Shown here: in pieces, positions 13,471 through 64,000 of the stretch
How positions within the stretch are numbered: position 1 is the first letter of the stretch
How the letters are laid out: the number at the start of each line of letters is the position of its first letter
Assembly: GCA_963971405.1 (NCBI GenBank)
Contig: OZ020486.1
Span: forward strand, 39,021,419 to 39,085,418
DNA from: Psococerastis gibbosa
Lineage: Eukaryota; Arthropoda; Insecta; Psocodea; Psocidae
DNA: 64,000 bases
Reading direction: 5' to 3'
The notes under the pieces: generated by a model
The model's input: the letters and a program-made list of their open reading frames with translations, nothing else
What the model was told of the DNA's origin: nothing
Databases searched by the model: none
Translations under genes and position numbers: made by a program

Positions 13471-15060
13471 TACAGCACACAAAAGATGGCGCACCTGAGC
13501 AGCAGATGTGGATGCTGCAGCTGCCCTCGTTTTATTCTCGTGTACACATTTACACATTTCAATCCCCACAGTCACTTCCTTCTTAAATTACCTGCTGCAG
13601 CTTGTCAGTTCATTTTGATACTTTTTCATCTTTTATTTCATTAGCGTTAGTAGTTGCTCTGGAGTCTGGAAGTAAGCTGGAGTTCTATATAGGAGAGATG
13701 GGACAATCACATCCTCAAAAATATCGGGGGTAACCTGCCCCTTCTTTTCAGTGGCTGGTCATAGGAGACGTCGTGGCAGGTGGCCCCTCAAATAAAAAAT
13801 ATATACGTATATCTCTTCTTTATGCAGTAGAACTCTAGGGTAAGCAATTAAGTGGGTAGCTGAAGTTTACGATTATTTCATTGTGATGCACCAACTTTTA
13901 GCTACCCCATGTGTAGATATTTCAATAGTTAAGTATGGAAAGGTCAAGCGTCACTGATCAGTGACGTTAACATTATTTTTATTATCTTCTTAAAGTATGT
14001 AATTTAATACTTTAAGTATGTACATTATTAATAATAACTGTATTTACTGAATGTTAACGTGGAAGGACAGAATTATATCCATGACTATTGGGGGAACCTA
14101 ATTTTTTAGGGAGTCCTGCTCAAATGAAAGTTTGAGAACCCATGTCATAGACTATGGATAAAGATAAAAAAGATTGTACCAATATCGTAGGAGCATTTCG
14201 CAAGTCGTTAGTCGTAACACACATCAAACACGCAGTGGAGTAACCAGCAATAATCAAATTAAAGGTATTCAAAATAGCAGTAAGATTCACCCATCTGCTG
14301 CCACGCTAAATAGGACTTGTAGTGGCGGCAGAACACCTTTCGACGCGGCACCTCGTTAGTCTAATGCTAATTTAACATTATTTTTATTGATCGATTAGCA
14401 ATCGTTATTAGATAACGACCGTGTCGTTAAGGCCGCCATCCTTTTTTGTTTCGCGTAATCGACATGGTTTTCACTTTTTTTACGCATTGCGAAATAAGCA
14501 TTGTCATTGGCTAATTGAGTGAGAAATTCAAAACTCAGCGTATGTGCGGTGTGTTTTAGGGTTAGCGTAGGTGTTAAGCATGCAATTTTGTCATTCTATG
14601 ATGAGATCATTTTTGCCTATTGCTTAATATTGACTTGAGTAATGTACTGGGAGGTTTCAATGTAGAGGAGGTTGCCTATGAAAGTAATATTTTCTTTTCG
14701 AACCCCGCAATAACCAGCAGGCCTAGTACCATCGTGATTTTTGACAGAATAATAATTTATCCGAGAATAAGGCGTGTAAGCCATCCTACGCGATTTAACA
14801 TTTTTTTTATAAAACAAAAAAAAAATGACCCTGCAAATGAGTGTTAATTGACTTACAAGAAATACAGCGATTTCGGGTCTATAGAAATTATGATCGTCGC
14901 ATTTAGGTTAATTTATATGCCGTATTTAAATAGTTTAAAACTTTAAAATTTAAGTATCTAGGTAACAGAAAATTTTTGCTGAGGGGAGACCGATAATGTA
15001 AAGGCGATGTAGGAAGAGATAGAAAAAAATAAGTGACATGTGATTGATAAATAAAAAAAT
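13471..15060. other. Unassigned stretch
   Basis: AT-rich, with short unsupported ORFs (14174-14359, 14620-14847). No RNA gene or known repeat family seen. Confidence 0.45.
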
Positions 15061-18545: not shown

Positions 18546-19102
18546 CAACTACTGCAGCATGGGACCTTTTTCAGTTGCATCAGCGAAAGAGGACTGTACC
18601 AAATGTAGAATAGAGCGCAGAAAACAACCGGATCCATAGAAAAACAACTGGCGCTAACACAAATGAATGCGTTCCCACAAACACCCTCTCCTCAGGGGGC
18701 CCTTTATTTGTTAAACCAAAATAGACCGACTTTTCAGAAGAAAGGGTACCTGTCACTTACGCGAAGCCATATAATGCATGTGATGGACACGACCTTGGCT
18801 GAAAACAGGTACTTCTGAACCTTACTGGGAAAGAATAGAACCTGAATTTTTTTGTCGGTACAGAAGTATTGTCCACTTTTGGCACATTGTTAAAATATTT
18901 TGCTTGAGCTACCTGTTTGTATCTTTGCAAAATTCCATGTGTGACAGGTGTATCGATCCCATTGGTCACTTCCAGACCCTAGTTTGTAATTTTTTTTTCG
19001 TAGGTTTCTTCCCTTCCCTGAAGACTCCAACGGCTACTTTAGTTTGCGTTACACAGTCCATTCAATTCCCATTCTTTGTCAAGCCGGCCTTTCGGGTTAA
19101 TA
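18546..19102. other. Unassigned stretch
   Basis: Short ORFs on both strands (18757-18969 minus, 18904-19140 plus) lack recognisable domains. Nothing else seen. Confidence 0.4.
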
Positions 19103-19489
19103 GTGTACAACCCATAGGTAAGTGGCAGCCCGAAATTTAATACTTTTTATTTTTTATTTAATTAACGAAGCATGTTATTAAAGATTTGGTGGCTCATCAA
19201 AGTTGTAGAAGACTACTTCATGCCTCACATTATAAGATATTTTTAATTTTCGAAATTCTAGTTTTTTCATAAACATGCAAATATTTGAAAAGTTATTGTT
19301 TATAAAATATTGTATTTGCATGTTTATGAAAAAAGTACAATTTCGAAAATTAAAAATATTATTATAATATATATGAAGTAGTCTTCTACAATTTTGATGA
19401 GCCAAATCTTTAATAACATGCTTAGTTAATTAAATAAAAAATAAAAAGTATTAAATTTCGGGCTGCCACTTTCTTACGGGCTGTACACT
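19103..19489. mobile_element. Long fold-back element, about 190-bp arms
   Basis: The left arm starts GTACAACCCATAGGTAAGTGG and the right arm ends CCACTTTCTTACGGGCTGTAC. The arms remain complementary almost to the centre near 19295 with few mismatches, including 'aagcatgttattaaagat' and 'gtagaagactacttca'. It is AT-rich and non-coding. Related single-arm sequence appears near 19826 and 9530. Confidence 0.85.
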
Positions 19490-19544
19490 CTTAAGGTGTT
19501 GGGCTGATTTCATTACGATGTAGTATTATATATGGTATATATAA

Positions 19545-19665: not shown

Positions 19666-21476
19666 TTTCTATGTACGGTATTTGCACAATGCGATGCGAA
19701 CGAAAATGGCAGGTTTCGGAGGTAACTTATACATTAGCCATTTCTGGATCATCCCCAAATAGGTCCCTTTATATTTTACCATATAGGTTAATACTGAAGC
19801 AATAAAAAATGTATCCATTCAATTGGTAGAAGATTATTTCATACGCCATATGATATGCTACGCTAATTTTCATTCTTGTTAATGCTATAATTAATCCATG
19901 AATTTGTTAATTCCGAAAATTTAAGTCGCTAAATTGTATAGAAATAGTTACATTGCCGTTATTCGAAAAAGGGGGTCTCCCCAAATTTTGAAAAAAAATT
20001 GGCGCCGAAATAACGCATTTTAACAGCAGTAACGTTTAGATTTCACAAAGCTTACAGAGGAACCCCTATTCATATTATTGCAAAAATGAGCTGAATCCGT
20101 CCCTGGCCATGAACCGCAGAATACATAAAACGACTTTACTCCATGTGACGGTTTGCAAAAAAGAGGGGTACAAGTTTGTCAATTTTTTATGTCAATACCA
20201 TAACAACAAAATTTTGATTTATTTTTTTCCCCATCAACCCAAATCTCCCAATTGCACCACCACCATTCATGATTCTCAGTTTTTTCGTAAGCCAAAAAAC
20301 AATGTTTACCCAAAGTCCCACTCTGTCTTCTAACTTCCTTGTACCTCGTCCTTTTCTATAGCGATTTTTTCCCTTTTCCAGGATCACTATTGTTAACGTT
20401 TCTTTCATTCCAATTGATTTATCGTTAGGTAAGCTCAGCATGAGCCACGTCAGACTTGCATTCCTCACCTTAACAAGTGCCATTGGGACGGTTTGATCAA
20501 TTGGTGATAATTGGTGGCAAGTTTTCGCTAAATCCGTTCATTCTTTGTTTATCTTCCATCGGCTATTTGTCCCGATTGTTGTTGTCCAGCGTCCTAGGCA
20601 CGTCCCTCGCGCAGGTATCGCGCGTCTTGTTCTCCAGGGATTTCGTTTGACATCGGTTTTTCGGCCCTACGACCACCCTGACAAACCAGTCATGGGTTGA
20701 TCTTGAAGGACCTTTAACAAGCAGTTGTACCTGAGTCTTGGAACTACACAAAAAATTCTAATTTTGTCAAAAATATACATCAGTAACTTCTTTGAAGACC
20801 AGGACCACCCAAATACAGGTACAAAACCAAAAAAGGCAAGATTGGTGCAAATTTTGATCCAACTTCCAGCCAAAGGTACCATTCCAAAATTAAGACATTA
20901 TATCAGCCTGTCGACATCTGTGATACGATACCTCACCTGATATTACAGGAAACAACAAATCCAGAGAAGACCCTCCATCTCCGGAAGACCGAAGGCGCCT
21001 GAAAAGTGAAAACTGATGGAGATGGTCCCCAATGAGCAGGTGTGTGCCCAATACACCTGGCTAAATTTGATTTATAGTACCTTAGATTGACACAGACCCC
21101 ATACAGCACGTGTATGGACTCCTTGACCCTGGACCTGGGTCTTGCACTCCCGTAGGGCTGGCCGAAGGTTGGAAGGTTCTTTGATGGGTACGGGTGGTGA
21201 TGGTGGCCGATGGGCATGAGATGCCAAGGGTAGCTGCCAGCTGCCTTATACAATGAAGAATTTATTGAAAATCTTTTCTTGAATCTTTTCAATGTCCTTG
21301 TTTATCCTTGTTAGAGCAGCAGCCGTAGAGTGCACCTGCTTTTTAAGATTTTAGTTTGTCTTTGGAGGGCAGACATTTTTCAAATTCTTGGGCTGGTTGG
21401 TGGAAAACTGAACTGTGACACGAAAATTCAAAGTTCAAGGTCTAAAACTTTTTCAGTCAACCCGACCCTAATGGAT
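19666..21476. other. Unassigned stretch with short open frames
   Basis: Open frames exist at 20187-20483 (minus) and 20933-21292 (minus). A plus-strand piece after an acceptor-like 'gatattacag' (20938-21018) reads NNKSREDPPSPEDRRRL before a stop. None matches a family I know. Confidence 0.35.
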
Positions 21477-22612: not shown

Positions 22613-22710
22613 CATGATGGATTCCTATGATGGATTCCTTATAATGTTTCGGAACTTTTTTTACATGGATTTAACAGGTGGTCCCCGAACTTTACTATTG
22701 ATTTATTTTA

Positions 22711-23624
22711 AAGAACCGGTCCGAGTTTACTCGAACATGCTTTCCAATTTATCAAAATTAGTAGATAGAGAAAATGAGTAATTTCATGGTAAATAATTTT
22801 CCTATGGTTAAATTTCCGATATCTCGGGGGGGGGGGGGTGTGGTGTTGTCTACCTGATGTCACTAGAGGTGTGGTAAATTCTAGATGGGTCAGATCAACA
22901 CATTACCACTCAGCAATACTGGCAGGGCGCGCAATGCATTTCAACGTGAATTTTCTATCATTTTTTCAAAAAAAACATTTTTTCTACAAAACCAAATACT
23001 TTTCTGGGAAAGCAACCTGTCCGGCTTCGTTACTCAATTTAACACCTAAAACATGCCTGAAGGTAGAAACCATCGATAGAAAGGTTTCGCAGAAAAATTA
23101 TCTTTAATCATTTTTCATTAAAATTTAGTTATTTTTATTTTTTTTGCCCCAGAAGCAAACTATCAAGGGGCACCCTTGCATTTTGTCAACATTATTAACG
23201 ACTACAATATATGTATGTATGTATATATATATAATGTTTAAATGAAATCGTTGGAGCCGTTTTTGAGAAGTAATTTTTTTAGACGTTCTTTTGGATTTTT
23301 TTTGAGAATAAAACCCTCCCAAATTAAGTTAGCCCCAAATAAAAAATATAGTTCCGAGGTATGATTTTTGTAAACCTACATGCAAAATTTCATCAAAATC
23401 GACCGAGTAGTTTGCCCGGAAATCGACGCACAGACAGACAGACATACAGACATACAGACATACAGACAGACAGACAGCAGACAGAGCGACAGACAGACAT
23501 TTCGTAAAAACCACCTTTTTTGGGTTCCTGGGACCTGAAAACGTGTAAATCCGTTGAAATCTCTGAATCGAAAATTTCGACCATCACAAAGCTTTCCTTA
23601 TACTATACGTATAAATTGGAAAGC
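22711..23624 (-). mobile_element. Helentron-like (DINE-1/HINE-type) element, near complete
   Basis: Read on the minus strand it starts GCTTTCCAATTTATACG, carries a GTCT/GTAT microsatellite (about 23430-23500), then 'cgatttccgggcaaac', 'gattttgatgaaattttgca' and 'gtaggtttac'. It ends with ATAAATTGGAAAGC, a hairpin CGAGTAAACTCG and GGACCGGTTCTTT. A 5' motif repeated inverted near the 3' end plus a 3' hairpin is the plan of Helentron-type rolling-circle elements. No Rep/helicase is encoded, so it is non-autonomous. The Cys/Val/Ser-rich frames here are microsatellite artefacts. Confidence 0.75.
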
Positions 23625-23663
23625 AGCAATTGAAGTAATACCATCATACTTACTTACTTTACT

Positions 23664-24460: not shown

Positions 24461-25326
24461 TACATTTAATTTGTAATGGTGTTTTGAACAATTCTGTCAA
24501 TTTTCAGCCAGCTGCGAATTATTGTAATCTCGGATGTCTATATTGACCGGACAAAAATCTAAATATTAAAGATATAATTTATTGCATTCGAGTTTTTGTC
24601 GTTTTTGCATTTAATAAGAAAATTAGTGTGAAAATAGCATATATTGTTTTTTACAAAGTTGCGATTTCAATGAACAAAAAGCCCACCAACTTTTTAAAAA
24701 AAATCTATATTTTGACGTGAAATTTTTGATTGAAAATTAGTGTGCTTTCACGATATTTGTCAAAATTAGGTGAAAAAATAAATAATAAATAAAAGGTAAG
24801 TTTTCACCAAATTTCGTGATTTTTTTTTGTAACAGACATAAATAAAAAACAAAAACTTATTTTTCTGCATTTTCACATAAGTTTTGAGGTTATGTGAAAA
24901 AAGTGTAAAACCGAAAGTTGTAGATCTTCTTATTACCTACATTTTTACTTTTAACGTTTTTCAATAAGACTTGAAAACTAGCAGGAAATTAAGATATACC
25001 CTATTTCACCCTCCAAAATTCACTCCCACCTACTTCCCGACCCGACCACCCGTAATTTATTTATTTTTTCATTCTTATTATATTGTCTTCTATTTCCAAT
25101 GGGTTTTATCCTAATATAATTTGATGTCACTTTTTACCATTTTTAAAGGGATCTAATTTTCCATTTTATTCAAATGTTATAATATTATAATAATAAAAAC
25201 TAGTACTAGTAACTAGTACCTGGGGGTACAGGAAAGGAGCCTCCCCGAAGATAGTTTTTTAAACACGTGTCATAAAAACCGTTAATAAAAACCCGATCGG
25301 GCTTACCCTGGGCAACGCAAAGTGGA
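24461..25326. other. Unassigned AT-rich stretch
   Basis: Very AT-rich with many stops in all frames. Nothing recognised. Confidence 0.5.
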
Positions 25327-26241
25327 AAGAACCGGTCCGAGTTTACTCGAACATGCTTTCCAATTTATAAATTAGCAGATATAGACATGTGTAATTTCAT
25401 AGGAAATAATTTCCCAATGGTTAAATATATACAAATATATAAAAAAAACCTTACAACCTAATGGCATATTCTGGAACGAACAGACCAATACATTGTAACG
25501 GTAGTAACAATGACACATGCCACGTAATATATTGGAGCGTGAATTTTCCATAATTTCTCAAAGAATAATTTTTTGCACAGAAGCAAATATTTTTTGGGAA
25601 TGCAACTTGTCCGTTTTTGTTACCCTATTGAACACCTAAAACATACCTGAAGGTAGAAATCATCGATAGAAAGGTTCCGCAGAAAAATTATTTTTTAGTC
25701 ATTTTTCATGAAAATTGAGTAATTCTAATTTTTTCACCCCCAGAAGCAAACTATCAAGGGGCAAGCGACCCCCCGCATTTTGTTAACATTAATAACGACT
25801 ACAATAGATGTGAATTTAAAAGAAATCGCGTTGGAGCCGTTTTTGAGAAATAATTTTTTTAGACGTTTTTCTGGAGTTTTTTGAGAATAAAACCCCTCCA
25901 AATTGAGTTAGCCCAAAATAAAAAAAAATTGGTATCGGGGTATGATTTTTGTGAACCTACATGCAAAATTTCATCATAATCGGCCGGGTAATTTGCCCGG
26001 AAATCGATGACCATACAGACAGACAGACATACATACAGCCAGACAGACAGACATGCAGACAGACAGACAGACAGACAGAGTGACAGACAGATATTTCGTA
26101 AAAACCAGTTGTTTTGGTTCCTGGGACCTCAAAACGAGTAAATCCGTTGAAATCTCGGAATCTAGAATTTCGACCATCACAAAGCTTTCCTTATAATACG
26201 TATAAATTGGAAAGCAAGAATCGGTCCGAGTTTACTCGAAC
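25327..26241 (-). mobile_element. Helentron-like element plus end of an adjoining copy
   Basis: A near-complete minus-strand copy occupies 25327-26215. It is immediately preceded in its own orientation (26216-26241) by the 3' end of another copy: hairpin, then GGACCGATTCTT. The middle part belongs to the same subtype as 31413-32593 ('gcatattctggaacgaacag'). The microsatellite is at about 26008-26095. Confidence 0.75.
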
Positions 26242-29165: not shown

Positions 29166-30579
29166 GAACAGGCAATGTAAGTCTAACTAATCCTTTGTTA
29201 AATAGTTTTAAACCATTGCCATTAACCTTTACAAATAGATTATCTAAATCAGTTTCAGTATCCGCCGCCTCTGGGCAGCGAAGCTTGCCCCCCCCCCCTC
29301 TTGCTTGTCAGCGGCCTCCCCGATCTCACTATGACTGCTGCAATAAATCTGTTGATTATGTAGAAAAGTAATCAGCAAGTGTCGCTCTAATGTGGCCGTT
29401 ATCATAAGTTAACTCAAGAAGTATTTGTTAAACTTTTACGTATTTTCGTGGGCCCTACACCAAAAGTAGAATAGGCTATTTCTTTATCCCTAAAATTTGC
29501 CATCTAGTCCTCCTATTTGGAATTTCATCACTGACCATATTACCAATTGTAAGCTTGTTTAACTAATTAATATTCTGCTAATATAAAAATTAAAAATTAA
29601 AAATTTATATTTATTAATTAGGCCTACTGTTTTAACTAGGTATTCCTTAACTTTTTTTCGGAATATACGATATTTCATTTTTTGCTTTATTTACAGTACA
29701 ATAAAATGCAGCTAGTGAGTGAGTGAGTGTCGTGAAGCCCTTAAGGGACCTTTTTCCCAGAATTGGCAATCCACCCCAACCGTTTCGGCAACCTATGGTA
29801 CCCTTTTCCCGGTGCAGACACACCCCATCACCTTATGCAGAATCTCAGCCAATCAGGAGCCACCGCGGTTTTCAACGGTCAAGCCTTTGTTGAAGTGTCC
29901 AACCCAAAGAACTTATATAATAAACTAGAAGAACCATTGGCGCTAGTGTCGCATGGTCATTTGACTTCTGCCATTTTTGGGCTCACAGCAGGGGGTATTC
30001 TGAGTTTTATTTTAAAACTAAGAGAAAATGCCTTTTTGTTGCCCTGTTATTACTGCCTATAATTTAATTTTGCATTTGCTACATTTAAAATTTCATAGGG
30101 TACAGTACAGTTGCTGTTTTGGATGATTGAACTTATTTGATGCTATTGTTTATTTTTAATCCACATAATTTTCAGCTATTTTGGGAAAGCATATGTATCA
30201 TAATATAGTGAAGTTAGACAGCCAAAATATTCAATAAAGACACATTTTTTTTAGTTTTAAAAATCTTGGATTAGGTACCATAAGATAACTATTGAGTTTC
30301 ATTTGGCGCGAAAATGTGAGGCCAAAATATGGCGGATCTTCTATTGGTCCCCTGTTCCGCAAGCAAATCATATGGAGGTGTAGGGGCTCGGTCCAACCTG
30401 TGCCTTGAAGATTTTTACCCACGGATATTTTATATAAAATGGAGTAACTTGGCTTTATTTTTATAAGCTAAACATAGGCGATAATTTATTTTGATTCAAG
30501 ATTCAGGCAGCCATTTGCACTGATATCTTCGTTGCATCATGATGCATGTTTCCCGTTCTACGAGTAGATCCCATGTATT
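29166..30579. other. Unassigned stretch
   Basis: Open frames at 29719-29928 and 29763-30062 (99 codons) resemble no family I know. A C-run at 29288-29298 suggests a further MITE fragment. Confidence 0.4.
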
Positions 30580-31412
30580 GCTTTCCAATTTATACGTAGT
30601 ATAAGGAAAGCTTTGTGATGGTCCAAATTTTCGATTCCGAGATTTCAACGGTTTTACACATTTTGAGGTCCTAGGAACCCAAAAAAGTGGTTTTTACGAA
30701 ATCGCTCTGTCTGTATGTCTGTCTGTTCATCGATTTCCGGGCAAACTACCCGGCCGATTTTGATGAAATTTTGCACGTAGCTTCACAAAAATCATACCTC
30801 GAATCCATTTTATTTTATTTTGGGCTAACTCAATTTGGGGGGGAGGGTTTATTCTCAAAAAACTCCAAAAACGTCTAAAAAAATTATTTCTCAGAAACGG
30901 CTCCAACGATTTCTTTTAAATTCACATATATTGTAGTCGTTATTAATGGTAACAAAATGCGGAGGTCGCTTGCCCCCTGATAGTTTGCTTCTGGGGTAAA
31001 AAAATAAAAATAACTAAATTTCAATGAAAAATGACTAAAAAATAATTTTTCTGCGAAACCTTTCTATCGATGGTTTCTACCTTCAGACATGTTTTAGGTG
31101 TTAAATTGAGTAACGAAACCGGACAGGTTGTTTTCCCAAAAAACAATTTGGTTTGCGCAAAATTTTTTTAAAAAAAAAATGAAAATTCACGCTTTAATGC
31201 ATTGCGTGCCCTGCCACTATTGCTGTGTGGTAATGTCAGACCTATCTAGAATTTGCTTCACCTCCAGTGACGTCAGGTGGAACCCCCCCCCCCCCCCCCC
31301 CCCGAGATGTCCGAAATTTAACTATAGGAAAATTATTTACCATGAAAGTACTCATTTTCTTTACTAATTGATAAATTGGACAGCATGTTCGAGTAAACTC
31401 GGACCGATTCTT
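30580..31412 (+). mobile_element. Helentron-like element, complete non-autonomous copy
   Basis: It starts GCTTTCCAATTTATACG and has a short GTCT tract (30708-30726), 'cgatttccgggcaaactac', 'cgattttgatgaaattttgc', a long C-run (31268-31303), an inverted subterminal 'gataaattgga(c/a)agc', the hairpin CGAGTAAACTCG (31390-31401), and ends GGACCGATTCTT. The length is 833 bp. It abuts the next copy head to tail with no spacer. It is the same internal subtype as 22711-23624. Confidence 0.8.
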
Positions 31413-31541: not shown

Positions 31542-31718
31542 TCTGTCTGTATGTCTGTCTGTATGTCTGTCTGTATGTCTGTCTGTATGTCTGTATGTCT
31601 GTCTGTATGTCTGTCTGTATGTCTGTCTGTATGTCTGTCTGTATGCCTGTCTGTATATCTGTCTGTATGTCTGTCTGTATGTCTGTCTGTATGTCTGTCT
31701 GTATGTCTGTCTGTATGT
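31542..31718. repeat. (GTCTGTCTGTAT)n microsatellite
   Basis: An almost pure GTCT/GTAT array. The long frames of repeated Cys-Met-Ser-Val or Tyr-Arg-Gln-Thr across it are artefacts. Confidence 0.95.
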
Positions 31719-32142
31719 CAATCTGTTCATCGGTTTCCGGGCAAAGTATTCGGCCGATTTTGATGAAATTTTGCATATAGGTTCACAAAAATCATACCTC
31801 AAGATTTTATTTTTATTTTGGGCTAACTCAATTTGAGGGGGTTTTATTCTCAAAAACGGCTCCAATGATTTCTTTTAAATTCACATATATATTGTAGTCG
31901 TTATTAATGTTAACAAAATGCGGGGGTCGTCTGCTTCTGGGGGTAAAAAAATAAAAATAACTAAATTTCAATGAAAAATGACTAAAAAATAATTTTTCTG
32001 CGAAACCTTTCTATCGATGACCTCTACAAAAACGGACAGGTTGCATTCCCAAAAAAATTATGTTTTGAGAAATTATGGAAAATTTACGCTCCAATACGTT
32101 ACGTGCCATGTCACCATGTGTCATTGTTACTACTGTTACAAT

Positions 32143-57683: not shown

Positions 57684-57790
57684 GGGCTTGTGGTCGAGCG
57701 GTTAAGACGACGTCCCGGTTAGGCGTAGATCGTGGGTTCGAATCCCGCCAGGTCCAATTTTTATTTATCCTCTAATTTCAATAATTAGTA
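57684..57790 (+). ncRNA. tRNA-like sequence heading a SINE (family 2)
   Basis: 57684-57756 folds into a complete 73-nt cloverleaf: acceptor GGGCTTG with CAGGTCC plus A, a 3-bp D stem, a 5-bp anticodon stem (57710-57714 with 57722-57726), a 5-base variable loop, and a T arm GTGGG-TTCGAAT-CCCGC. The anticodon loop CCGGTTA has C instead of the invariant U33 and U instead of a purine at 37, which argues against a working tRNA. The tail 'atttatcctctaatttcaat' is shared with 46298-46445, so I call it a SINE head; a diverged tRNA gene (GGT, Thr) is the alternative. Confidence 0.6.
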
Positions 57791-60173: not shown

Positions 60174-60345
60174 CAGGCACGGACCCAGCCCATTTGGGGG
60201 GGGGGGCGGGGTAGCTGTGGGTCAAATAAATAGAATAAACGTATGTAGTATCGATTACATTAGAACGTAATACTATCAATTAACCTACAACAGACTTACT
60301 AAATTGGGGGGGGGGGGGGATCTACCCCTCGCGTCGCAGCTATAT
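60174..60345. mobile_element. hAT-like MITE (GGACGGAT type), partial
   Basis: CAGGCACGGACCCAGCC, G-runs, 'gtagctgtgggtcaaa' and a second G-run near 60306. The right end is not preserved. Confidence 0.6.
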
Positions 60346-60952
60346 AGGCCAGTCAAGTAATAATTAAAACACGTTAAAAAACTGAAAGAAAGAAAGCAAG
60401 CAAACGAAAAAGTAAAATAAAAAACTTAAAAACACGAAGATGCTGCAACTGAAATACAGACGCAACTGCGCTAAAAGACTACTTATCCAGGTGTTCCAAA
60501 AACCTTAGACTCCTTGAGGATGCCTGTGTTGGGCGAGGTAGGCCCAGCCAGGTGCCGGCCGTGGCCCTATAGTTCATAGCGTACGGTACACCCAAGCACC
60601 TGCCGCCGTATCCCCTCTCCGGCTTCCAGCTCCAGTGGTCTATCCTCACAACATCGCCACTCTCCAGTGGCATATGGGCCTACCGCCCGAGTGACTAGCC
60701 GCTCAGGAATTTCGTAGGTGGTCACCTATAGGTCAGTATGATTGACCGATTTTATATTGTGTCTAGGTGTGTTGTTTTTTTGCATGATATCCCCGTTAGG
60801 AGACCCAATTCTTCTGCTATCTGGGCCTCTGGTATTTTTTAGGGTACATTACTTATGGCTGTTCTAGAATCTGGGTGGATTCAGTTGATTAATTGTGGTA
60901 AAATACAAAGGTGCAGGAAGACAGTGACAGTAGGGGCAGGTGGGGCTGTAGC

Positions 60953-61119
60953 CAAGGCCGTAGCCAGGAGTTTTTTTCGGGGGGGAGGGGGGTTCAGAAA
61001 TTTCAATGGATATTATTTTTCCTCTCAAAATCCGATTCAATCTAGTGTCAAGCCATTTCATTTCGGGGGAGGGGGGGGGGGGGTTGAACCCCCATGAACC
61101 CCCCTTGGCTACGGCCTTG
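60953..61119. mobile_element. hAT-like MITE (CAAGGCCGTAGCC type), complete
   Basis: The TIRs are CAAGGCCGTAGCCAGG and CCTTGGCTACGGCCTTG. Flanks GCTGTAGC (60945-60952) and GCTATAGC (61120-61127) form an 8-bp duplication with one change. 167 bp, G-runs inside both ends. Confidence 0.88.
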
Positions 61120-61869
61120 GCTATAGCCTATAAAAATTAAAGTCAGAAACTATAAAAACAATTTTGTTTTTCTATTGACTGCCCCCCCCCCTCCCTAAAC
61201 TAAATCCTGGATACGCATAGGTTCCTGATTGGCCCATAACCACAATAGAACTTTCTTCTTAAGACCCAGCTCTATTCGCAGCTCTATGTCCTAACCCTCA
61301 GGCCTTACTAGTAGTTTATTTTCCAAAAGCTAGCTTAGCTTAATCAATTTTAATACAATAGTATAACTGTATAAATGAATAGTGGATATATGATTTTTAT
61401 TTTTAATTTTCTGCTTATTTTGTTCTCATGACTATATGCTTAGATCAATGATAAAACGTTATGCTTATAACAGTATAATATAATCTATAAATATAATAAT
61501 ATAATAAAATATAATCGCCTAAATTGGTATAAAAATCGCTGTAACAGTCATTAAGTCAAGAGTTAATGGCTTGACGCACTCCCAAGCAGGGTCAAACTTA
61601 GGGGATTTCGTCCTATAAAAACTACTTTCTTTTCTTGTGTCTGAACAGAATAAATAAATAACATAAATAAATAACAGAATAAATAAATATAAATAACTGC
61701 CAAATAATGGAGACCACCTAGGTCAAACCAAGTGCCAGAAATACTTGTACCGACTACAGGTACATAACGATATAACACAAATATAAACTCACTATCCTTC
61801 AATGAACTACGCTCAAGTCGGATCGTTGTGAATTTTTCGCAGCTTTACCCAAAGGGGAAGCAACTCAAA
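61120..61869. other. Unassigned AT-rich stretch
   Basis: A C-run MITE fragment at 61180-61215 and AT-rich simple sequence at 61630-61700. No gene. Confidence 0.45.
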
Positions 61870-62000
61870 CTCGATGCTGATTGGTTAATCAGTTCGTTCT
61901 GTTTTATTATGTTTCGCTTCTATTGGTCGGTGAGCACGTGCTAGGTGCAGCTGTAGTACGATATGCATAGGGAGGGGACAAGGTGCAGCGCATTCAGATG
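61870..62000 (+). promoter_or_regulatory. Putative promoter of the Snail-family gene
   Basis: Two inverted CCAAT boxes (ATTGG at 61880-61884 and 61922-61926), a CACGTG E-box (61935-61940) and a CAGCTG E-box near 61948 lie within 80 bp in a CpG-richer part just upstream of the leader. A weak initiator TTCAGAT with A at 61996 has GGTTCG at +28 to +33 (62023-62028), matching the DPE consensus RGWYV. No good TATA box is seen. The start site is inferred only. Confidence 0.45.
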
Positions 62001-62167
62001 CGGCCAAGTTGTGTAAGGGAGAGGTTCGCTGATTGTTGTTTTCCTACCTTGTTTTTACGTACGACTTTTGTGATTCCTCTACTTTAGTGTGGGTGCTACT
62101 CCCTCAAACCGGTAGTTGCCTTTCGACCTCTGAAGTGAGTGGTTCAGTTGTGAGTTGCCCCGAAACC

Positions 62168-62197
62168 ATGGATTTCGTCTTCTTCATCGAGACGTGA
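62168..62197 (+). CDS. Upstream ORF in the leader, 9 codons
   Basis: ATG at 62168 in a strong context (aaaccATGg) encodes MDFVFFIET and stops at 62195-62197, 71 bases before the main start. If the leader is transcribed as proposed, scanning ribosomes should meet this ORF first. It may dampen translation of the main frame; there is no evidence that the peptide has a role. Confidence 0.4.
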   Translation: MDFVFFIET

Positions 62198-62268
62198 ACT
62201 TGTGTTTTATTTTTTTTTGTGTATTGTGCCTTTGGATTTTCCAATATTTTTGTTTCGGTTACTGGATT

Positions 62269-62392
62269 ATGTCATTGGAGAACTTGGATGGTGGAAAATT
62301 TGTGAAAATGGGTGTTTCCAAAAAGTATAGTAATTGTCCTTTGAAAAAGCGACCTGTTCAACTTGTAAAATTTGAACTGGATGAGTGCAAAG
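62269..62392 (+). CDS. esg/sna: Snail/Escargot-family zinc-finger repressor, first coding exon
   Basis: The exon encodes 41 residues and ends with one base of a split codon at an excellent donor (AAAG|GTAAGG, intron from 62393). Residues 18-30 read KKYSNCPLKKRPV. This is the NT box found at the N-terminus of arthropod Snail, Escargot and Worniu, where it occurs as NYxxCPLKKRP close to the initiator Met; these proteins are nuclear C2H2 zinc-finger repressors that bind CAGGTG-type E-boxes in mesoderm, neuroblasts and imaginal cells. The zinc fingers are not in the window and must be in later exons. ATG 62269 has a poor context (gattATGt); the in-frame ATG at 62308 has a better one (aaaATGg) and would put the NT box nearer the start, as in insect Snail. 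Assignment to sna, esg or wor is not possible. Confidence 0.8.
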
Positions 62393-64000
62393 GTAAGGAT
62401 TTTTATTTTATTTAATAATATTATATACATGTAAATTTAATATTTAATAATAATAATAATACCTACCACAATTCACAGTGCTTTTCAAATTGGTATTGGA
62501 CATTGCTACTATTTCAAATCAGATCAGGCTAACTTGTACACCTAAAACTATAACAGCACTATTTGAGATTTCAAATTGATTTTTTATATAATATTATTAG
62601 ATGATTCAAGAAATCAAAATAAGTTACTTAAATTTTCACAGCTTTGTAATAAAACAAAAACTTCTGACGATTTTATTCTTTTATCCCGTTAAGGCGTTAA
62701 CCTATCAAGTATCAACTATTAATATGCAATACAACTTATTTTCTAATATAATTTTATTCAAATATTATTTTAAACTATTCTTTTAATAATGAAAGTAATT
62801 ACGTAATTAATATTTTTGTCAGTTTTTTCGTTTTTTTCTTATGAGATTGCTGAGATTCCATTTTTGGATTCAAATTTTGGGCAAAATTTAGAACCTAACC
62901 GTTAGATCTTTTGGTACCTGCGTTAGGTTTGCTGGTCAGGTAGGCTATCAACCCCAACAATTAAAACTACCAATTTGCACTGAACACATTGTCTATTGTC
63001 TGTTGACCATCCTTTACTATAGTAAAGTATACTTAGCAACTGTACAATATAATATATATTGCAGCCTATAAATAATTTGAAATATTAATTATGGGCTTTT
63101 TAGATATAATCGTGTGTAATAGGGTTTTTTGGGGCCTATTGCATATAGACTACATTTTTATATATCCTCCCGGAAGTGTCGTTAAATAAAACTAGATTCA
63201 ATTTCTAGAATACATATTTTTTCCTTGTCCAATGGCAACGACCCCATGGATTTCTGACATTATATATATTAGTATTGTTTCGTATGAGTTTTTTCGCTGT
63301 TGGAAAACTCGTATACGTTCCCGTTGTCATAATGGGCAAGATGAGACAAGCTTACCAACGCAATGAAGCAGGCGAAAGCACGACTTAACCAAGTACAGAT
63401 ACGAGTCTAGAATGACCCGCTGCACTTCAGCGACTGGGTACAGTAGAACGCGTCTAAAGTAGTTTTCTGCCAATGCACATGGGACAGAACGACACCATTG
63501 CACCCACAAATTACAAAAATGAAGCTTATAGCGATATCGAAATAATTATTGAAATGTACATCCTCCTTTAATTGTTCTAATTAATAAACCTAAAATAATA
63601 GTTATATAGGTACCAGAACCTCATGGGTAATTAACCTATTTAAGAACGATCCTTCAGTAACTGCCCCATAATTATTTTAACATCACCGTAACCAAAACCC
63701 ATTAACAAGTAATTTTTTGCTTGAATACAAAGTCTTTTACCATTGTAGGCTACACTTGTTAACTGTTAAAGACTTTCTCTTTAATAAATTTCAAGTAGTC
63801 TGCTTAAGTAGGTATGATAAACCAAGGTCCCACAAAAGGGGCGGCTAATGTATATCATGTTAACAATTACACAATAAATAAATCCGGAAGGCACATATCT
63901 AAAAAGTGATCTTGAGTTCGTGGGCAGTGTCACGATCTCGCCGGATACTTTTTGTGTCATGCTAAATTACTGTAACTTAGTCATACTACGCTGTAACGAC
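62393..64000 (+). other. Start of first coding intron of the Snail-family gene
   Basis: Begins GTAAGG and stays AT-rich, with (AAT)n near 62445-62460 and a dispersed repeat D copy at 63222-63420. I see no second exon with an acceptor and zinc-finger codons before the window ends, so the intron is at least 1.6 kb. Confidence 0.6.
63222..63420 (+). repeat. Dispersed repeat D inside the intron
   Basis: 'ccttgtccaatggcaacgac', 'cccatggatttctgacatta' and 'agtacagatacgagtc' match 52300-52570. Confidence 0.65.

Follow-up and report, generated by a model that had tools for sequence, protein, structure and literature searches.

A probable first coding exon of a snail gene in Psococerastis gibbosa, with a phase-matched zinc-finger exon downstream

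Introduction

Snail is a well-known developmental switch of animals that silences other genes. The question raised by this locus is whether a short open frame near the end of a stretch of 64,000 nucleotides of Psococerastis gibbosa DNA (C3:39021419-39085418, hereafter the window) is where the coding sequence of a snail gene begins, as a preliminary description had proposed. We analyzed the window, the sequence downstream of it, and a genome of 409 Mb in 68 contigs. Judged from the sequence, the frame is very probably the NT-box exon of a snail gene that looks intact, has two coding exons and is probably single-copy. It is most likely the first of the two exons, and the likely start of the coding sequence of a key developmental repressor is thereby located in this genome. 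The coordinates of the features are collected in Table 1.

Table 1. Features of the predicted snail gene and of the two Scratch-like genes; positions are those of the window unless a contig is given.
Feature	Position	Strand	Basis or remark
Possible initiator TCAGTT	62144..62149	+	One of two matches in 61500-62268; not start-site evidence
Exon with the NT box, most likely the first coding exon of snail	62269..62392	+	41 codons from Met1 plus one base
Alternative start codon Met14, context GTGAAAATGGGT	62308..62310	+	In-frame ATG; start choice inferred
YSNCPLKKRP, repressor motif that would bind Ebi/Smrter (the NT box, here taken to be SNAG-2)	62326..62355	+	Six-frame motif search; function from PMC9890238
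Phase-1 intron, 4,928 bp, first part	62393..64000	+	Donor rank; ends past the window, at window-equivalent 67320
Exon 2, 368 codons including stop, five zinc fingers	C3:39088739-39089844 (window-equivalent 67321-68426)	+	Acceptor and frame
Two Scratch-like genes	C13:23035479-23035910 and C13:23133711-23134130	- and +, respectively	About 98 kb apart on one contig, opposite strands

Results

The exon encodes MSLENLDGGKFVKMGVSKKYSNCPLKKRPVQLVKFELDECK; a single base then remains ahead of GTAAGG. In a search of all six frames of the window, YxxCPLKKRP and the shorter PLKKR each matched a single time. A first-order base model fitted to the window predicts, for both strands together, 7e-6 chance matches to YxxCPLKKRP, 2e-4 to a looser form of it and 0.14 to PLKKR alone. 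The preliminary description had recognized the NT box of Snail, Escargot and Worniu in these 41 residues, and the single occurrence of YxxCPLKKRP, highly improbable by chance, bears this out; the sequence of the motif matches the NT box as given in the published motif text. Taken by itself, the NT box points most likely to an arthropod.

Searches of Pfam and the PDB with the 41 exon-1 residues gave no match, as expected because the piece is so short, and tblastn in plasmids gave none either. In the genome, a degenerate DNA pattern of the NT box was found at two places and a reversed control pattern at none; read by eye, the other place encodes KKS, not KKR, serine replacing arginine. An NT-box DNA pattern was also present in 23 stretches of prokaryote and viral collections (21 and 2, respectively), 12 of which read in frame as Y..CPLKKRP, one of these through a stop. 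The strict zinc-finger pattern is absent from all 23, and they are therefore taken as chance matches and not as homologues.

The donor AAG/GTAAGG at 62393 ranks sixth among the 3,563 GT sites on the forward strand of the window, as scored by an approximate weight matrix, in agreement with the consensus donor that had been claimed at the exon end. Downstream, a C2H2 search located a finger at C3:39089611-39089679 (+). It lies 4.2 kb beyond the end of the window, within an open frame that is 386 codons long. The stretch of downstream sequence used here (L032) is identical to the window over their 2,019 overlapping bases. Upstream of the finger, 18 AGs are able to open the frame in phase with the leftover base of exon 1. 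The best of these acceptors, tttttttttttacag/ATGTG, scores 11.1, a value that no more than 0.2% of the AGs of L032 reach; the second-best in-phase acceptor scores 4.9 (98.9th percentile), and its use would skip the motif PQDLT. With the best acceptor, exon 2 begins about 3.3 kb beyond the window. A phase-matched zinc-finger exon on the same strand and contig, predicted beforehand from 41 residues alone, is thus confirmed in the genome sequence, with a strong acceptor and five fingers. In the window itself, no match to the strict zinc-finger pattern was found; a looser C2H2 pattern matched once, at 13507-13575, and this looks like chance.

Splicing at the best acceptor would give a protein of 409 residues from Met1, or 396 from Met14, that runs without an internal stop. 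In the order of exon 2, PQDLT is followed by PEDLS and then by five fingers, the last of them of the C2HC form. A Pfam search of the protein returned C2H2 fingers, and its best match in the PDB is human SNAI1 (3w5k, E 9.4e-63). Over 113 residues of fingers 2-5, the identity to human SNAI1 is 80.5%, against 59.5% and 57.7% for the two Scratch-like genes of this genome. Members of the Snail family sensu stricto have usually five, sometimes four or six, Snail-type C2H2 fingers, and the predicted protein has five such fingers. By sequence, its second exon also supplies the CtBP motif of the family, once as PEDLS and once as a variant, PQDLT; as between Snail and Scratch proteins this motif is limited to Snail, where it is not in all members.

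Upstream, the frame of exon 1 stays open as far as a stop at 62131, and a further ATG in the same frame, at 62308, makes two candidate start codons: 19 residues precede the tyrosine of the box from Met1, and six (MGVSKK) from Met14. The chance that the protein starts at Met14, with 62269-62307 as 5′ UTR, is only a little under even, and such a start is compatible with our explanation of the gene. The context of Met14, GTGAAAATGGGT, is nearer to the start consensus than that of Met1, TACTGGATTATGTCA, and the six residues left before the box would come near to the leader of fly Snail, which we take to be short; Met1, however, likewise has an A at –3 and is the first to be met in scanning. The preliminary description had considered the leader unusual. 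It is probably ordinary: SNAG-1, which fly Snail also lacks, was not found, and a start at Met14 would make the leader short.

It is unlikely that a further coding exon lies upstream, so that 62269 would fall inside an internal exon. The open frame up to 62131 would permit this, and two AGs, with exon starts at 62192 and 62136, stand at the 88th and 78th percentiles; but none of the seven AGs examined from 62131 to 62330 is strong, the other five lying at the 23rd to 49th percentile, and an internal exon is therefore improbable. Against it, too, no SNAG-1-like sequence was found in the six frames of the window, in L032 or in the 80 kb upstream, as searched with a pattern that has no positive control. 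A very unlikely elaboration on a first exon with two starts is that both are used: one Snail isoform would then have a lineage-specific leader of 13 residues that replaces SNAG-1, the other would lack this leader, and the pair would tune the access of Ebi to PLKKR.

Core-promoter motifs upstream of exon 1 were not informative, and the CpG content there, at the 80th percentile, is unremarkable. An upstream open reading frame of nine codons, the ATG of which stands in a strong context (GAAACCATGGAT), occupies 62168-62197; if it lies within the mRNA, it may dampen translation of the snail frame.

A genome search, in which 111 of 1,699 first-look candidates were scored, returned the snail locus itself at 850 bits. 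The next two matches, at 168 and 167 bits and 56-57% identity, are the genes on contig C13; their fingers share 84% identity and presumably mark both as Scratch. No second Snail-class gene was found among the 111 candidates scored. Since the next-best matches are Scratch-like and far below the snail locus, this assembly appears to hold one copy of snail, a statement that covers genes with the degree of similarity expected of a Snail paralogue. In the neighborhood of the gene, the sequence THTLPC, the NT box and the SNAG-1 pattern were found in none of 18 loci, each of 10 kb, which came from the 80 kb before the window and the 100 kb that follow L032. Separately, many of the genome matches listed come from a dense cluster of C2H2 zinc-finger open frames on contig C15, at about 28.6-31.9 Mb, a possible lineage-specific expansion.

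Copy number bears on whether the gene could be a paralogue of Escargot or Worniu type and not the Snail orthologue, which is quite unlikely. The NT box and the fingers may not separate the three fly paralogues, but the genome search found a single such gene, which makes an undivided orthologue of fly Sna, Esg and Wor the likelier identity. That exon 1 belongs instead to another PLKKR repressor, such as Vrille, and lies near a snail finger exon by coincidence is scarcely credible: PLKKR is used by several fly repressors including Vri, but the longer YxxCPLKKRP is described for Snail (PMC9890238), and exon 1 connects in frame to the next finger exon through the strongest of its in-phase acceptors.

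Of the 64,000 bases of the window, 13,269 belong to repeats shared within it (E 1e-10, simple sequence masked). Exon 1 lies in 60315-63328, the second-longest stretch free of such repeats at the same threshold. Eleven open reading frames of at least 110 codons are present in the window; nine of them had no match in Pfam at E 0.1, and the two left out of this comparison are overlapping, low-complexity frames near 10 kb. Since only frames of at least 110 codons were compared, a smaller exon of another gene in the flank is possible. The preliminary description had seen the MITEs and SINEs of the flank as potential cis-regulatory material; the repeats may have such a role, a weaker claim than that of the snail exon. 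The 4.9-kb intron is a candidate for further regulatory DNA.

Several repeats of the flank were seen individually. A family of about 900 bp has at least three copies (22710-23625, 25326-26216 and 30579-31412; 78-81% identity, one inverted), and 31647-32142 is a shorter, more diverged relative. The 400 bp at 19097-19494 match their own reverse complement at 85%, forming a large palindrome that may be a MITE. A small MITE may also account for an inverted repeat at 60944-61128, which precedes the exon by about 1.1 kb; its arms measure 40 nt and are 78% complementary, and its interior is G-rich. At 57684-57756 (+), a tRNA-like sequence (53 bits in Rfam) was called tRNA-Thr with anticodon GGT, and no second copy of it was found in the window at E 1e-10. 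The anticodon GGT is unusual for a nuclear threonine tRNA, and this sequence may therefore be a SINE head or a decayed copy.

Discussion

The transcription, splicing, start codon and corepressor binding of this snail gene are presumed from its sequence. The spliced protein would bind DNA through its five C2H2-type fingers, PLKKR in exon 1 would recruit the Ebi/Smrter (NCoR/SMRT-HDAC3) complex to bring about transcriptional repression, and PQDLT and PEDLS in exon 2 would recruit CtBP to the same effect. Given PLKKR in one exon and CtBP-type motifs in the other, two corepressors working as in fly Snail would be the natural reading for this gene.

In Drosophila Snail, YxxCPLKKRP is the binding motif for Ebi, a subunit of the Smrter complex (Qi et al., 2008, cited in PMC9890238). 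According to the RD-seq results of PMC9890238, the repressor domains of Sna, Esg and Wor contain both PLKKR and PxDLS; PLKKR domains pulled down Smr, CG17002, Ebi and HDAC3; and the Snail domain was weakened by mutation of PLKKR and abolished only by mutation of both motifs. Dependence on Smr and Ebi was not testable in that study because RNAi depletion failed. As an earlier result of its authors, PMC10445730 gives the requirement of Ebi for Snail-dependent mesoderm specification, and it describes partial de-repression of sog on knockdown of HDAC3, for which HDAC3 catalysis is dispensable. In the gene described here, PEDLS fits PxDLS and the N-terminal CtBP-type motif PQDLT lacks a strict fit; PXDLT variants are described in two vertebrate Snails (Kerner et al., 2009; PMC2688512). 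A search of the window found no PxDLS near exon 1, the sole match lying at 20410-20424.

The NT box also bears on the SNAG domain. In the account of Kerner et al. (2009; PMC2688512), SNAG is split into SNAG-1 and SNAG-2, which rarely occur together. Members of the Snail family have one or the other, and in some both are missing. Because fly Snail is given only SNAG-2 in that account, we take the NT box as SNAG-2. A SNAG-1 pattern found nothing in the window, and the same pattern was also silent in both Scratch-like loci, which were searched together with flanks of 1.5 kb. With fly Snail lacking SNAG-1, and with SNAG-1 lost 11 times in the most parsimonious scenario (PMC2688512), a Snail without it is ordinary. 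The snail gene described here is of an ordinary kind, belongs to a known family and leaves knowledge of that family unchanged; our results suggest a single Snail gene beside two Scratch-like genes in this genome.

With Drosophila Snail, Escargot and Worniu the predicted protein shares YxxCPLKKRP (PLKKR being present in all three), a CtBP motif of the PxDL type within that repressor region, and five fingers; SNAG-1 was not found, as in fly Snail. Unlike Drosophila, there is apparently one gene here and not three, and the N-terminal CtBP-type motif is PQDLT. The leader of 19 residues (six from Met14) before the tyrosine would be a further difference. The two Scratch-like genes share the fingers of the Snail superfamily at about 55% identity and, by a signature in the finger sequence, presumably form a separate family. 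Human SNAI1 (3w5k) resembles the predicted protein in its fingers, at the 80.5% identity over 113 residues given above; unlike SNAI1, no SNAG-1 motif was found here, and the insect protein has five fingers, the first of which is lost from human SNAI1 (Kerner et al., 2009; PMC2688512).
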